NCBI GenBank assembly: GCA_028285305.1
Contig: JANQPV010000032.1
Coordinates: forward strand, 1 to 48,746
Source: Alphaproteobacteria bacterium
Lineage (GTDB): Bacteria; Pseudomonadota; Alphaproteobacteria; SMXP01
Reading direction: 5' to 3'
Length of the DNA stretch: 48,746 bases
The translations under genes were made by a program, and so were the position numbers. This document shows positions 4,111 to 10,816 of the stretch, piece by piece. The notes beneath the pieces are model-generated. The model did no database searches. It was not told the origin of the DNA and worked only from the letters and a program-made list of their open reading frames with translations. Numbering within the stretch: position 1 is the stretch's first letter; each line of letters starts with the position of its first letter.

Positions 4111-4162
4111 GACTGCGCCGATGGGCGTATCAACACATGTTTAAATGAGAGGAGTTGGGACC

Positions 4163-5344
4163 ATGGCTGAAACATCACACACGTCGGCGCTGCAATATCT
4201 CGATCGCGCGGTTGGTGAACTGCGCGCGATGGGGTTCAAAGACGAAAGTGGTGAGCCTGAGCCCATCGTTGCCCTTTTAAAGCAGATCGCGGATCTCGAC
4301 GAAGATAGGATCGCAGCCATCGCACGAACTCTCGACCAAGCGTCCTATTTTAACGATGTGGTCCGGGAAGAAGTCTCCGGCATGAAGATCGCTGAACGCT
4401 ATGAAGGTATCACCGCCGCTTTTGATTCCATCCGCGACGATGCGCGCAGCCTCGTCGATCAGTATGCCGATGGTAAAGTCTCCACTATTGAAAGGGTATC
4501 CAACGCCTGGATGAAAATGACGCGCGGGGACATTGCAACGCGCTTTGACAAAATCAAGGACCTCTATCTTGAGGTCGCGAAAGATACCAACGATCAAGTG
4601 GAGCGCGAGGGGCGGATTTTGGAAGCCTACCGGGATTTTCGAGGCGCCCTGAAGCAATCAGAGGTGCTGGCGCTCGAAGTGTTGGAAATCGCCGAAGGAC
4701 ATTTGGATGGCGCAAAAACGGCCGTGAGCAAGGCTGTCGATACGGTCACCGCCTTCACGGCTGACGATCCGGCGGAACGGGCAAAGTTGGAACTGGCCCG
4801 GGATGAAGCGCTCAGGGTCTTGCAACGGGAGGAGAAACGCTACCAAGTCGCGAAGGACCTGTCCGATAATCTCACCATAGGCTACAACACCTCCGAAGTT
4901 ATCATGACGCGTCTGGTGCAAACGACCAACGCCAAGGACCGGGTTTATGCCCAGGCGGTTTCTTTTTTCAGCACCAATGAAACGGTTCTCACGGCGCTTA
5001 CGGCCACCTTTACCGGCATGCACGGGCTCCATGAATCCACTCAAACCCTCGAGGCCATGAAAAAGGGCATCAATGAAAGTTTGGAGACCCTCTCGGACAT
5101 CGGCGGCAAGGTGCAAGAGGCAGCGGTCGAGGCCGGGTACGGTCCCACCGTGTCCGCGGCGGCGGTCAAGAAACTCGTCGACTCGGTGGTCAATTATCAA
5201 GAGCGCAGCCAACAGATCATTGCTGAAATGCGGGCTGCAGCAACTCAGAACTCAAAAGAAATTCGGGAAGCGGTGGAAGATGGAAAGACGCGTCTCGCCC
5301 GGCTTGTTGAACAAGGTGCTGGAAACGCGCTTATAGGCTCCTAA
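4163..5344 (+). CDS. Uncharacterised helical protein, first gene of a three-gene module
   Basis: 393 aa from the ATG at 4163, chosen over the ATG six codons upstream because GAGAGGAG sits at the right distance. The sequence is almost entirely helix-forming and hydrophilic, with no signal peptide and no membrane segment. It ends in a long charged helix (EIREAVEDGKTRLARLVEQG). In size and helix pattern it recalls TelA/toxic-anion-resistance-like proteins, but I do not see the C-terminal signature of TelA, so this is a loose likeness only. It is followed after 18 bp by the membrane-anchored protein and then the coiled-coil protein, all co-oriented. Function unknown; probably cytosolic and acting with its two neighbours. 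Confidence 0.7.
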   Translation: MAETSHTSALQYLDRAVGELRAMGFKDESGEPEPIVALLKQIADLDEDRIAAIARTLDQASYFNDVVREEVSGMKIAERYEGITAAFDSIRDDARSLVDQYADGKVSTIERVSNAWMKMTRGDIATRFDKIKDLYLEVAKDTNDQVEREGRILEAYRDFRGALKQSEVLALEVLEIAEGHLDGAKTAVSKAVDTVTAFTADDPAERAKLELARDEALRVLQREEKRYQVAKDLSDNLTIGYNTSEVIMTRLVQTTNAKDRVYAQAVSFFSTNETVLTALTATFTGMHGLHESTQTLEAMKKGINESLETLSDIGGKVQEAAVEAGYGPTVSAAAVKKLVDSVVNYQERSQQIIAEMRAAATQNSKEIREAVEDGKTRLARLVEQGAGNALIGS

Positions 5345-5362
5345 TTCCTCCGTATAGCCCTG

Positions 5363-6304
5363 ATGCCCGAAACCCACTCAAAGGCGGAGCCAACGGAGTT
5401 CGATGATGTCATGATCGCCATGGACATTGTCGATACGCTGCGCCATCAAGATCTCATCGTCGAGCGTGAGTTGAACGAAGAAGACCGTGAGCGTGCGCTC
5501 GTTCAGCGGTTGCGTGAGATCTATGACGCGCAAGGGATTGACGTGCCCGATCATGTCTTGCGCGATGGCGTTAAGGCGATGGAAGAAGATCGTTTCCATT
5601 ACCAACCGCCGGCGCCCAGCCTTCAGGTGAGTCTGGCAAAGTTCTACGTGCGGCGCGACCGGTGGCTGAAGCCCGTCTCCGTTGCCGCTTTGGTGCTCGG
5701 CGTGGGCTGGGGCGCCTATCACTATGGTTATGCGCAACCAAGGACTCAGCGCGCCGAACGCCTTACCTTCGAACTCTCAACTGTGATTCCGCAGGATCTC
5801 GCTTCTCATCGGGATAAAGCTCGATCGCTGTCCCTCACGGACCGGGCTCGGGAATATATCGAGGCCACCTACCAAGACGGGCTCGCGGCGGCGACCGAAG
5901 GCGATGAAAGAAGAGCAAGATCCGCCGTGGAGGCTCTTGAAGCAATGCAAACAGATTTGAATCGATCTCTCACGGTGCGGATCGTTTCACGGCCCGGTGA
6001 GTATTCGGGGGTCTTCCGCATCCCTGACGACGCACCGACCACACGGAACTACTATCTCATTGTGGAGGCCGTCGACCTTAGGGGTGAGGCACAATTGGTT
6101 GAGATAAGCAGTGAAGAGGATCAGCGAACTGAAAAAGTCAAGAAGTGGGGCGTGCGCGTCTCGGAAACTGCGTTCAACCGGGTGATGCGCGACAAGCAAG
6201 AAGATCAGATCGTGCAAAATGCGGTGGTCGGACAAAAGCGGCGCGGCGCACTCTTTCCAGAATATTCGGTCGAGACGACCGGCGGCGCCATCTTGGATTG
6301 GTAA
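5363..6304 (+). CDS. Membrane-anchored DUF6384-like protein
   Basis: 313 aa. Residues 1-100 are charged and helical with no signal peptide. A single hydrophobic segment at about 101-123 (after RRDRWLKP) anchors the protein. The remaining ~190 residues follow, probably outside the cytoplasm by the positive-inside rule. The last ~80 residues carry a compact conserved-looking block: RNYYLIVEAVD, WGVRVSETAF, RDKQEDQIVQN and GGAILDW. From memory this ending resembles the family listed as DUF6384; this was not checked. It is the middle gene of the 4163-7864 module and the only one with a membrane anchor, so it may tether the other two. No enzymatic motif is visible. Confidence 0.7.
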   Translation: MPETHSKAEPTEFDDVMIAMDIVDTLRHQDLIVERELNEEDRERALVQRLREIYDAQGIDVPDHVLRDGVKAMEEDRFHYQPPAPSLQVSLAKFYVRRDRWLKPVSVAALVLGVGWGAYHYGYAQPRTQRAERLTFELSTVIPQDLASHRDKARSLSLTDRAREYIEATYQDGLAAATEGDERRARSAVEALEAMQTDLNRSLTVRIVSRPGEYSGVFRIPDDAPTTRNYYLIVEAVDLRGEAQLVEISSEEDQRTEKVKKWGVRVSETAFNRVMRDKQEDQIVQNAVVGQKRRGALFPEYSVETTGGAILDW

Positions 6305-6337
6305 GCCGTTCATGACCCCTAGATTGGAACGACCCCA

Positions 6338-7864
6338 ATGACAAGCGGCCAACAAGCTTTGCGCCGGATCGATGCGGCGTTGAGCGATCTTCGCCAAGAC
6401 GTCGCGGACCTGACCTCAGCTTCGGCACACGACGCAAAGGTCCTCGCAGAATTGGAAGCCGAAGAGATTGAGCTTTACACTGCGATGGCTTCCGTGCGGA
6501 TGGACCATTTGAGTGAGGACGAGCCATCTGGAGGGGCCCTGCGGCGGGCGGATCAAGCGGTCTATCGGCTCATCGAAGAACACCAGAGCTCCATTGATCA
6601 GCTGAACTCCGACCGGACGAGCCTTGAGGACGGCCTTACTAGTCTCGAGTCGCGGCGCAGAGATTTGGAAGACGCCCACCGAACAGCGATCAGTGCCCAC
6701 GACGCGGCCGCTGTCAAAACACGCGAACGAATTGAACAAGAGGATGCGTATCAAAGTCTGGCAACCGTGCTGGAGGAGGCCAATGCCAAACTTCGCCGCT
6801 CCGTACAAAAGCTGGAAACGGCACAGGCGACTGAAAGAGAGAAAGGCTCCCCCTACCGGGCTGATCCCCTCTTTCGCTATCTGTTCGACCGGGGCTTCGG
6901 GACCAAAGCCTACAAGGCCTTTCCCCTCTTTGCCATGCTCGACCGATGGGTGGCGTCCCTCATAAACTACAAAGAGCACAAACTGAATTACGATCGCTTG
7001 TTGGAATTGCCAAAGTTCTTGGAAGCCCATGTTGCCCGATTGGAAGAGGAAGCAGACGCGGCGGACGAGCAGCTTGAAGCCTATGAGCGAGATGCACTCA
7101 CAGAAGATGGGGTGGACAATCTCAAGGCCACCGTGGAGTCATTTGGTGCGGACCTCGACAGTCTCGATACGGAGATTGATCAGACAGAGGCTCGATTGAA
7201 CGAATTGGGGACAAAGATAGAAGAGGCCTCTCTGGGCAACACGGACCAACTCAAGGAAGCGCGACGGCTTATGTCGAAGGCGATAGCGGGGCGCGGCCTG
7301 AACGAATTGTACCGTCTTGCTTCGGAGACAACTTCCCTCGAGGATGAAGAGCTGGTGGACTCGCTTGCCGAAATCGCCGAGCAAAAGGCGGAACTCGAGG
7401 AGGCGCAACGGGAAGCACAACGCACCATTAAACGCGAACGGACCGCGCTCAGCTCTCTGGAAGATGTGCGTCGGCGCTTTAAGCGGTCGCGTTTTGATAG
7501 TCCTTACTCTGAATTTTCAGGAAAGCGGGTCATCAGATCTTTGCTGAAGGACTTTCTTCAGGGGGAGATCACCGGCGATCAGTTGTGGCGCCAATTCGAG
7601 CGGCGGCACAGAACGCAGCGGCGCGACTGGGACAACGGCATGGGCGGCCACAAATGGAAGGATGGCTTCGGACTGCCGAAGGAATGGGGGCGCGGAGGTT
7701 CCGTTGATTGGGCTGATGTTTTGATGGAGGGTGCCTCGCGGTTGCCTCGGCGCCGCCGAGGTGGCATGAGGATCCCCCGCGCGCCTCGGCCCAGGCGGCA
7801 AAGCCCCTCGCGGCGACGGCGATCATCCGGACGCGGCGGTTTCAAAACCGGTGGCGGCTTTTAG
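6338..7864 (+). CDS. Large coiled-coil protein with basic, glycine-rich tail
   Basis: 508 aa. Most of residues 1-400 is heptad-rich and highly charged (for example LEAHVARLEEEADAADEQLE and LAEIAEQKAELEEAQREAQ), so long coiled coils are likely. Near residue 170-220 lies a less charged block with YRADPLFRYLFDRGFGTKAY. After a small folded segment (SLLKDFLQGEITGDQLWRQF) the last ~45 residues are an Arg/Pro/Gly-rich tail ending FKTGGGF. There is no ATPase motif, so it is not an SMC protein. It is third in the operon, 33 bp behind the anchored protein. The basic tail could bind nucleic acid or an acidic surface (inference). Function unknown. Confidence 0.7.
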   Translation: MTSGQQALRRIDAALSDLRQDVADLTSASAHDAKVLAELEAEEIELYTAMASVRMDHLSEDEPSGGALRRADQAVYRLIEEHQSSIDQLNSDRTSLEDGLTSLESRRRDLEDAHRTAISAHDAAAVKTRERIEQEDAYQSLATVLEEANAKLRRSVQKLETAQATEREKGSPYRADPLFRYLFDRGFGTKAYKAFPLFAMLDRWVASLINYKEHKLNYDRLLELPKFLEAHVARLEEEADAADEQLEAYERDALTEDGVDNLKATVESFGADLDSLDTEIDQTEARLNELGTKIEEASLGNTDQLKEARRLMSKAIAGRGLNELYRLASETTSLEDEELVDSLAEIAEQKAELEEAQREAQRTIKRERTALSSLEDVRRRFKRSRFDSPYSEFSGKRVIRSLLKDFLQGEITGDQLWRQFERRHRTQRRDWDNGMGGHKWKDGFGLPKEWGRGGSVDWADVLMEGASRLPRRRRGGMRIPRAPRPRRQSPSRRRRSSGRGGFKTGGGF

Positions 7865-7964: not shown

Positions 7965-10115
7965 ATGAATTACGTTCGTTGGTTTGGCCTCTTGGTCTTG
8001 CTGAGTGTCGTGGGGCTCGGCCTGTGGTTGTGGAACCCGCTGCCCGCCAATCCGACACCGGAAGAGCTCGCGTTGGGCGCCTCTGAGTATGATGTGGAAA
8101 TACTCCGGGACAGTTGGGGTGTGCCCCATATCTTTGGCAAACGCGATGCCGACGCCGCGTTCGGTTTGGCTTATGCGCATGCAGAAGATGACTTTCAAAC
8201 CATTCAAACAACCGTCGCGGCGGTACGCGGCGTTCTCGCCCGATATCAAGGCGTGGAGGCAGCGGTCACCGATTATCTGGTCTCTCTGTTTGGCGTGTGA
8301 TCCACAATCGATGAGCGTTACGAAGACGATGTCCCCGAGGATGTGAAGGCCATTGCCGAAGGCTATGCGCAGGGATTAAATCTTTATGCCTCCAAACACC
8401 CGGACCTGACATGGCGCGGATTGGCGCCCTTTACAGCGGAAGATATCATCGCCGGGTTTATCTTCCGTACACCCTTCTTCTATGGGCTTGACGAGGCACT
8501 GCTCGACCTTTCCGGTGACGAACGACAGGCGCAAGTGTCCCTCGATCCTGGAACCGGCGTTCGGGCCTGGCATGTGGGACCGAAATCGGCCACCGAACGG
8601 GGGTCCAATGCGATCGCTGTTGCGCCAATCCGTTCGGGCGACGGGACCACTCGCCTGTTAATCAATTCGCACCAACCGATGACCGGCCCCGTCGCTTGGT
8701 ACGAAGCCCATTTGGTGTCGGAAGACGGGCTTGACATTACGGGCGGTGTATTTCCGGGCTCGCCGCTCATATTACATGGGTTCAATCAAGACTTAGGGTG
8801 GGCGAATACCGTCAGCAAACCGGATCTTGTTGATATCTATCGCCTGACCCTCAATCCGGACAACCAGAAACAGTATAAGCTCGGCCAAGAATGGTTGAAC
8901 TTTCAAGTCGCGTTCGCCCCCCTCACCATCAAGATATTCGGTCCGTTTGCTTTCAAGATGAAACGTCAGGTCTTGCGGTCCGTTCACGGACCGGTCATTG
9001 AAACGCAACACGGTACATATGCATTCCGTTATGCCAATATGGGCGAGATTCGGCATTTGGAGCAGAACTACCGCCTGAACCGAGCCTCTAGTATTGATGC
9101 ATTCATGGAAGCTATGGCGATCGGCGCCTGGCCAAGCTTGAACTATGTCTATGCAGACAAACAGGGAAATGTGGCCTTTATCCATAACGGGCAATATCCG
9201 GTCCGCCGGGATGGCAGAGATTGGCGGGAGGACCTACCAGGGGACGCACCGGACTTGATCTGGCAAGACTATCTTCCATTTGACCAAGTGCCCAAGCTCG
9301 TCAATCCATCTTCGGGCCTCGTCTTTAATGCGAACAACACACCCTTTAGCGCCACGGACGGAAGCGACAATCTGCGCCCAGATGAGCTCCCTGAATGGAT
9401 GGGACTTCAAACAAAACAAACCAATCGTTCGTTGCGGCTCATGGAATTGACGGACGGGTCTTCCGCCATCGGACGAGATGAGCTTCTCGCTCTCAAGTTC
9501 GACGATGCCTATGCCGTTGGGTCCGATGCGGACCAAGTAATCCAGACTGTTCTTGCTCATGATTGGAGCGGCGAGCCCGAGATGGCGGAAGCTGCGAAAC
9601 ATTTGGCCGCGTGGGATCGCCGGATGAACAAGGAAAACAGACACGCAGCCTTGGGCGGCCTTACCGTTCTCCGAGAAGTCACCGCCGGGCTCACACGGAC
9701 GCCGGCACCTGATCCGCTCACCGCCTTTCGCGAAACCGTTCAGTACTTGACGGAACATCACGGACGTTTGGACGTGCCTTGGGGGGACGTCAATCGCCTC
9801 GTCCGGGGAGAAATCAATATACCCATTGATGGGGGCTCCGACACGCTCCGGGCGATTTATCCAGCCGAGATTCGCGAAGATGGGAAGCTGCATGCCAGTG
9901 CAGGGGATACATGGATCGCCCTTGTGGAATGGGACGAAAAAGGCACTCAGTCTGCGGACGTCATCCATCAATTCGGCAGCGCAACACAGGACTCAACCTC
10001 CCCCCATTTTGCCGATCAGGCGCCTTTGTTTGCAGAGAAAAGGTGGCGAAAAGCGCTCCTAAATCGGCAAGCGATTGAGGCGGACGCCACTCGGCGCTAT
10101 CGCCCAAATGACTAA
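7965..10115 (+). pseudogene. Penicillin-acylase-family amidase interrupted by an in-frame UGA
   Basis: One reading frame of 717 codons runs from the ATG at 7965 to 10115, broken only by TGA at 8298-8300 (codon 112). Before it: an N-terminal membrane/signal segment, then DSWGVPHIFGKRDADAAFG, the usual start of the alpha chain. After it: ERGSNAIAVAP, where Gly213-Ser214 would be the autocleavage site and Ser214 the catalytic N-terminal nucleophile (N-terminal hydrolase fold). Length is normal for the family, which cleaves amides such as acyl-homoserine lactones or beta-lactam side chains. The broken position reads FGV-stop-STIDERYE, where relatives, as I recall, often have Trp, so a TGG-to-TGA change is the simplest explanation. 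A GTG at 8343 with GAGG upstream could restart translation, but without signal sequence or most of the alpha chain. Confidence 0.8.
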
Positions 10116-10252: not shown

Positions 10253-10816
10253 TTGGGATCACTTTTGAGAGTAGTATTGCTTTGGGGGGGCCTGTTCACC
10301 CTAGGGTGGCTGAGCGGGGACCGCTACGGCACATATGATTGGCTTTCCGGTGCAGTCGCGCCGGTCTACGGGATAGCCGAGACACAAATCGGTACACAGC
10401 TGAATGCTGTTGCGCCTGACATGTTTCCACTCGAAGAGGAAGAAGCGCCGGTAGAAGAAGCGGCCGAGGAACCTGTTCCAACTGAGACGGAAACGGCTGT
10501 CGAAGAAGCTGTAGAAGACGCGGTTTCTGAAGCGGAAGAAGCACTTCAAGACGCCGTCGAAGATGTGACCACGGTGGAAGAAGCCGAGGCGGCGGTCGAA
10601 GATGCGGCTGAAGCCGTAGAGGGTGCAGCTGAAGAGATTGCTTCGGAAGCGGAAGCAGCTGTTGAAGACGTTGCGTCGGATGTAGAAGCCGTGGCCGAGG
10701 AGGCTGCGTCGGACGCTGAGGCAGCGACCGACGCTGCTGCTGACGAAGGTATCGACCTGCCGTCCACAGACGAAATGATGGACGCTATCGGCGGTATAAA
10801 CGGCGGCGGCAACTAA
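10253..10816 (+). CDS. Membrane-anchored, extremely acidic Ala/Glu-rich protein
   Basis: 187 aa starting at TTG 10253, directly behind a strong GGGGGAGGG ribosome site; no ATG is available nearby. Residues ~4-20 form one hydrophobic helix (LLRVVLLWGGLFTLGWLSG). From ~60 to ~170 the protein is nearly all Ala, Glu, Val, Asp and Thr in irregular short repeats such as EEA, EDA and AEAAVEDA. This gives a very negative, disordered or coiled-coil rod. The end (STDEMMDAIGGINGGGN) is different and may be a small motif. No domain recognised. It has its own leader with an inverted repeat and its own terminator, so it looks like a single-gene unit. Function unknown. Confidence 0.7.
   Translation: MGSLLRVVLLWGGLFTLGWLSGDRYGTYDWLSGAVAPVYGIAETQIGTQLNAVAPDMFPLEEEEAPVEEAAEEPVPTETETAVEEAVEDAVSEAEEALQDAVEDVTTVEEAEAAVEDAAEAVEGAAEEIASEAEAAVEDVASDVEAVAEEAASDAEAATDAAADEGIDLPSTDEMMDAIGGINGGGN

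Follow-up and report, generated by a model that had tools for sequence, protein, structure and literature searches.

What do three genes do that stand side by side in a bacterial genome, recur together on chromosomes, plasmids and phages, and match no enzyme? The question is raised by a 48,746-nucleotide stretch of an Alphaproteobacteria bacterium (contig JANQPV010000032.1 of assembly GCA_028285305.1), the whole of which is called the window here. A preliminary description made from the letters alone had singled out three co-oriented genes without an enzymatic motif; the coordinates and the gaps of 18 bases (genes 1 and 2) and 33 bases (genes 2 and 3) are as it gave them, all three lie on one strand, and no enzymatic family is matched by any of them. 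Judged by their sequences, the genes are a fixed, co-inherited and mobile cassette for one apparently anchored and two apparently soluble proteins. That the three proteins act together is well supported, and a shared function is very likely because strict co-inheritance extends from Alphaproteobacteria to a jumbo phage. As to what that function might be, the reading that we tentatively prefer, mainly by analogy, is a mobile inner-membrane complex, probably protecting or sealing the inner membrane when the envelope is stressed or attacked. The genes are as follows.

4163-5344, + strand: gene 1, 393 amino acids (ATG at 4163, stop at 5344), soluble all-helical protein, the slowest-changing of the three
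5363-6304, + strand: gene 2, 313 amino acids, DUF6384 protein
6338-7864, + strand: gene 3, 508 amino acids, coiled-coil protein, no Pfam family

All three are real coding genes: third codon positions diverge far more than the others, and about 90 loci carry the cassette. Compared with the nearest relative (locus L015), gene 1 diverges by 17/11/59% at codon positions 1/2/3 and gene 3 by 45/37/73%. Such a pattern is that expected of coding genes under purifying selection, evidently strong on gene 1, and it makes gene 1 the slow part of the cassette and gene 3 the fast part.

Distribution of the cassette

A genome scan with a profile of gene 1 returned at least 423 relatives; the best 80 were read and, with four from viral contigs, make up the 84 loci described here. 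The order 1-2-3 on one strand is kept in 79 of the 79 loci with enough DNA, the other five stopping at a contig end. Departures are small: a gap of 1.8 kb between genes 1 and 2 in L057, and a gene 3 in two frames in L077. The three families occur jointly in every locus long enough to tell except that of cyanophage Dfl-JY45, which is taken up below, and in this respect the earlier grouping of the genes into one module has held up well. No fourth gene is constant, the next commonest cluster (antisense frames excluded) occurring in 12 loci at varying distance, and the immediate neighbours are of mixed function. Pairwise distances among the three proteins are correlated (r 0.86-0.90, with a permutation maximum of 0.27), although common descent of the loci accounts for part of this correlation.

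The majority of known copies lie on contigs from ordinary bacterial genomes. The full set is also found on all 11 plasmid records that have gene 1, with sizes of 0.3-1.4 Mb, from Bradyrhizobium, Microvirga, Methylorubrum, Rhizobium and Pseudomonas. The bacteria that have the set include Stappia sediminis and the harmless Methylorubrum extorquens AM1. On two Pseudomonas megaplasmids, StiP-PELOTA genes (Ter-type) lie a few genes upstream of the cassette (L128, 2585-3652; L127, 2471-3541), and on three there are dCTP deaminase genes downstream. The lytic jumbo phage phiR1-37 of Yersinia has the full cassette as g190-g191-g192 (L106, 8974-12805). Its g190 shows 40% identity to gene 1 over 97% of the length, g191 matches the DUF6384 alignment, and g192, which ends FSSSDSF, matches the gene 3 profile (hhalign 97.9%). 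The notes of the phage record flag structural proteins and none of these three is flagged, nor are g190-g192 named by number in the main text of the phiR1-37 RNA-seq paper. In viral contig L095 (5151-11696), the cassette has a phage integrase gene on one side and a helix-turn-helix gene on the other, a placement that resembles the position in which cargo genes are often found. Queries of the viral contigs with genes 2 and 3 gave no match.

A second full copy is present in the genome of the window, on contig C24 at about 202-231 kb (L009, L121, L122). Protein identity between the two copies is 79% for gene 1, 55% for gene 2 and 43% for gene 3; the second groups with a copy from Marinicaulis (L020), and the window copy forms a separate branch beside those of Parvularculaceae. 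The second copy lies within a stretch of ~30 kb with a G+C content near 0.63, other sampled parts of contig C24 being about 0.55, and about 11 kb of this stretch is colinear with Marinicaulis DNA at 80-83%. Contamination was considered as its source; because the high-G+C stretch sits in a contig whose other sampled parts have the G+C usual for this genome, the copy may have arrived by transfer or may be the product of an assembly join, both being possible. Among 398 sampled genomes of the phylum, DUF6384 is found in just two, one of them that of the window. The other four sampled genomes of the same order are without the cassette, although three of them are under 90% complete, and a comparison of five genomes says little about prevalence in the order.

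In the window itself, a probable ribosome-binding site of gene 1 can be read directly from the sequence:

4150-4154, + strand: AGGAG, probable ribosome-binding site of gene 1

The cassette is flanked by an EamA-type transporter gene on the opposite strand and, downstream, by a penicillin-acylase gene (7965-10115, + strand). The latter is split by an in-frame stop at 8298-8300, and both halves match PF01804 (profile positions 1-68 and 86-675), so that either a pseudogene or a sequence error is before us. Farther on, 10253-10816 (+ strand) encodes a 187-amino-acid protein that has a membrane segment at its N-terminus and a long region rich in Glu and Ala, and for which no family was matched.

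The three predicted proteins

Gene 2 is the only one of the three with a family. Residues 8-313 match positions 3-308 of the 308-position DUF6384 profile (PF19911) with an expectation value (E) of 1.6e-116 and 389 bits, against a curated cut-off of 25. It is thus a full-length member, as the preliminary description had supposed, and its constant partners, genes 1 and 3, belong to no family. DUF6384 has no described function, and no paper naming it was found. The structure model (mean predicted local distance difference test score, pLDDT, of 87) is that of a single-pass protein, again in line with the earlier description, with cytoplasmic helices at 15-96, a transmembrane helix at about 100-124, and a predicted periplasmic part consisting of a three-helix bundle to residue 199 followed by a 110-residue beta domain (203-313) that ends in Trp. 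In 89 of 90 homologues the charge pattern is that of an N-terminus inside the cell, and Trp is the last residue in 84 of 90. No convincing relative of the beta domain was found among the solved structures searched, and its only significant viral match is one protein of 440 amino acids, the same length as g191 of phiR1-37.

Gene 1, whether searched singly or as a set of 54 homologues, gave nothing above weak noise against Pfam, NCBIfam, PADLOC, PHROG and PDB. Matches to GatB, ApoLp-III and TetR_C in the Pfam scan were weak, absent from most homologues, and rejected. Public annotation calls its relatives ‘merozoite surface protein 3b’ or ‘cell surface protein’ (L010, 10013-11146; L012, 10001-11179), and neither name is backed by anything found in this analysis. 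The model (mean pLDDT 75) predicts an all-helical protein, as had been proposed, with short N-terminal helices, a long hairpin (124-197 and 203-284), a poorly settled region at 285-330 and a final long helix. No segment of transmembrane strength occurs in any of 92 homologues, the best 19-residue hydropathy being 0.7-1.37. Residues 271-300 are among the most conserved (identity 0.71-0.80), yet the model gives them a pLDDT of only 43-68; conservation exactly where the monomer model is uncertain suggests that they are a likely partner or oligomer interface. The hairpin tip at 181-200, in contrast, ranks with the least conserved regions (identity 0.36-0.40), and the loop at 198-202 is short and polar in a model of middling confidence.

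Most of the proteins whose structures resemble the gene 1 model act on membranes and have long helices. The top 15 among solved structures are components of the ClyA family throughout, with Z-scores from 12.0 to 15.0 (XaxA 15.0, AhlB 14.5, ClyA 12.7, MakA 12.0), and BAR domains rank below them at Z of about 9 to 11, although helical models often reach a Z of 14. The model may share with XaxA, AhlB and ClyA a long-helix bundle, perhaps of their five-helix kind; the difference is that gene 1 appears to be without the hydrophobic membrane-active head between helices 4 and 5.

For gene 3, likewise, whether taken singly or as a set of 64 homologues, searches of Pfam, NCBIfam, PADLOC, PHROG and PDB brought up only weak matches or coiled-coil noise. 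Its middle block, at about 168-230, is conserved (DPLFxYLxxRxFGT...), and a segment of transmembrane strength is seldom present (7 of 82 homologues). The end of the protein is conserved as well:

7835-7861, + strand: GGFKTGGGF, conserved C-terminal peptide motif of gene 3

The protein of the window ends FKTGGGF, the terminal pattern GGFxTGGxF is conserved in the family, 80 of 82 members having Phe as last residue, and within this genome the pattern occurs only at the ends of the two gene 3 copies. An Arg/Gly tail ending in GGGF had been described for this protein. The ending is indeed a family feature, but the Arg-rich stretch is lineage-specific: the tail has 33 basic and 13 acidic residues in the window and is Ser/Gly-rich in plasmid and phage versions. 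Kinship with SMC/Rad50 proteins was considered and rejected, the matches being far under the cut-offs and to the coiled coil only. The PADLOC matches, too, were only to the coiled-coil parts of large proteins, and the surroundings of the cassette are not rich in defence genes; a reading as a defence system was dropped. There is also a weak match to the MakE model (E 0.021).

Comparison with known systems and proposed function

The cassette can be compared with two kinds of membrane-associated system. TelA, which jumbo phages carry, is described as forming structures beneath the membrane (PMC7824862), and gene 1, which had been likened to it, also encodes a soluble helical protein and also occurs on plasmids and in jumbo phages. 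Kinship does not follow. Neither gene 1 nor any of 53 homologues has a Pfam match to TelA (PF05816), and profile-profile comparison (hhalign) of gene 1 with seven TelA proteins gave probabilities of 2-3%, against 100% for a split-TelA positive control. Of the earlier suggestion only a weak fold likeness to models of phage TelA proteins is left (template-modelling score 0.26-0.34). Gene 1 is therefore not a TelA by sequence tests, though its product may, by analogy, work in a similar place.

The second comparison is with the LiaI-LiaH and PspA systems. LiaI anchors and recruits LiaH in Bacillus, and the likeness lies in the pairing of a membrane anchor with a soluble coiled-coil or helical effector encoded by adjacent genes (PMC9239133). 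The cassette differs in having an extra coiled-coil protein with a C-terminal aromatic motif. PspA_IM30 is absent from the Pfam matches of genes 1 and 3 and their homologues, and there is no Psp or Lia regulator beside the cassette.

By analogy with LiaI-LiaH and the TelA-type systems, and without belonging to either, the cassette would protect the inner membrane. Gene 2 would be the anchor and probably the sensor, with its helix bundle and beta domain in the periplasm and its N-terminal domain in the cytoplasm; it would draw the other two proteins to the membrane's inner face and relay a periplasmic signal to them. The gene 1 protein would be cytoplasmic and would probably oligomerise at that face. 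Gene 3 would be a coiled-coil adaptor, its terminal GGFxTGGxF docking on a partner and so bridging the parts. The physical complex, the oligomerisation and the envelope role are what we infer from these comparisons. The ‘scaffold or stress/envelope complex’ of the preliminary description is compatible with the data, and guarding the membrane when the envelope is stressed or attacked would make sense for plasmids and prophages as well as for a lytic jumbo phage.

Several observations weigh against membrane protection of this kind. Cyanophage Dfl-JY45 has genes 2 and 3 (L013, 9020-11751) and no detectable gene 1, which indicates that gene 1 can be dispensed with in some settings. Neither a regulator nor another envelope gene stands regularly beside the cassette. 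StiP-PELOTA genes are limited to one plasmid lineage and occur in none of the other loci read, and no TelA, TerD or StiP was found in the genome of the window. Similarity of fold between helical bundles counts for little as evidence, and the model of gene 1 reaches a mean pLDDT of only 75. Finally, the literature yielded no study of the three-gene set, nor any experiment, expression or interaction data.

A serious competitor is superinfection or entry exclusion, in which the cassette would be cargo of mobile elements that alters the membrane against rival phages or plasmids, as proposed for Ter/TelA components. TelA has been proposed for the exclusion of rival phages and plasmids, Ter/TelA being found on jumbo phages and plasmids (PMC7824862), and the presence of all three genes on 11 large plasmids, in the lytic phage phiR1-37 and in viral contigs, once beside an integrase gene, is what such a role would lead one to expect. 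The patchy distribution, the second copy in a high-G+C segment and the StiP-PELOTA gene upstream on two megaplasmids point the same way. Exclusion is nevertheless held to be unlikely, if far from negligible, as most known copies are in ordinary bacterial genomes, only a handful of the 87 immediate neighbours match defence models (each family once), and the three genes themselves match such models by coiled-coil similarity alone. Of the conceivable uses, protecting the envelope and excluding phages or plasmids are the likeliest two, and the data do not separate them.

The remaining explanations are much less probable. Gene 1 could be the pore or lytic component of a ClyA-type alpha-pore-forming system, with genes 2 and 3 as membrane partner and chaperone or immunity protein. 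The uniform ClyA-family matches of its model and the weak MakE match of gene 3 would agree with this, but helical models commonly score a Z near 14, and neither a profile search of PDB chains nor a Pfam scan of 54 gene 1 homologues found a ClyA-family match. Moreover, where ClyA-like toxins have their membrane-active region, at the hairpin tip (PMC6162564), gene 1 has a short, polar, poorly conserved loop, and stretches of transmembrane strength are absent from the whole family; we consider a pore improbable. Hardly better placed is membrane tethering of DNA, in which an SMC-like gene 3 would hold nucleic acid by its Arg-rich tail and gene 2 would anchor it, so positioning plasmid or phage DNA. 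The coiled-coil similarity to SMC/Rad50 models, the basic tail in the window and the presence of the cassette on megaplasmids and jumbo phages favour it. Gene 3 has no ATPase head, however, the Arg-rich tail is not conserved and gives way to Ser and Gly in plasmid and phage versions, matches of this weakness to SMC proteins are typical of any coiled coil, and many copies are in ordinary bacterial genomes. Least credible of all is that the genes are passengers with separate functions, joined by common transfer only. Mobility, a patchy distribution and the Dfl-JY45 locus without gene 1 would all be accommodated, but it is hard to reconcile passengers with a gene order that persists across the distance between Alphaproteobacteria and a Yersinia jumbo phage, a fourth gene that is never fixed, strong purifying selection on gene 1 and correlated divergence of the three proteins.

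Combining the preferred membrane protection with its nearest rival, one may picture, as a possibility that is itself rather doubtful, a mobile inner-membrane protection or exclusion machine made of two unnamed families and DUF6384, unrelated by descent to Psp, Lia or Ter/TelA, with parts joined via C-terminal aromatic peptides, and exchanged among bacterial chromosomes, megaplasmids and phages, both prophages and a lytic jumbo phage. The compact and mobile cassette is a good candidate for the bench, and two unnamed families and one DUF, some of them misleadingly annotated, become one testable system. Protection or closure of the membrane, if true, would explain a DUF family and would add a type of cargo to those of megaplasmids and jumbo phages.

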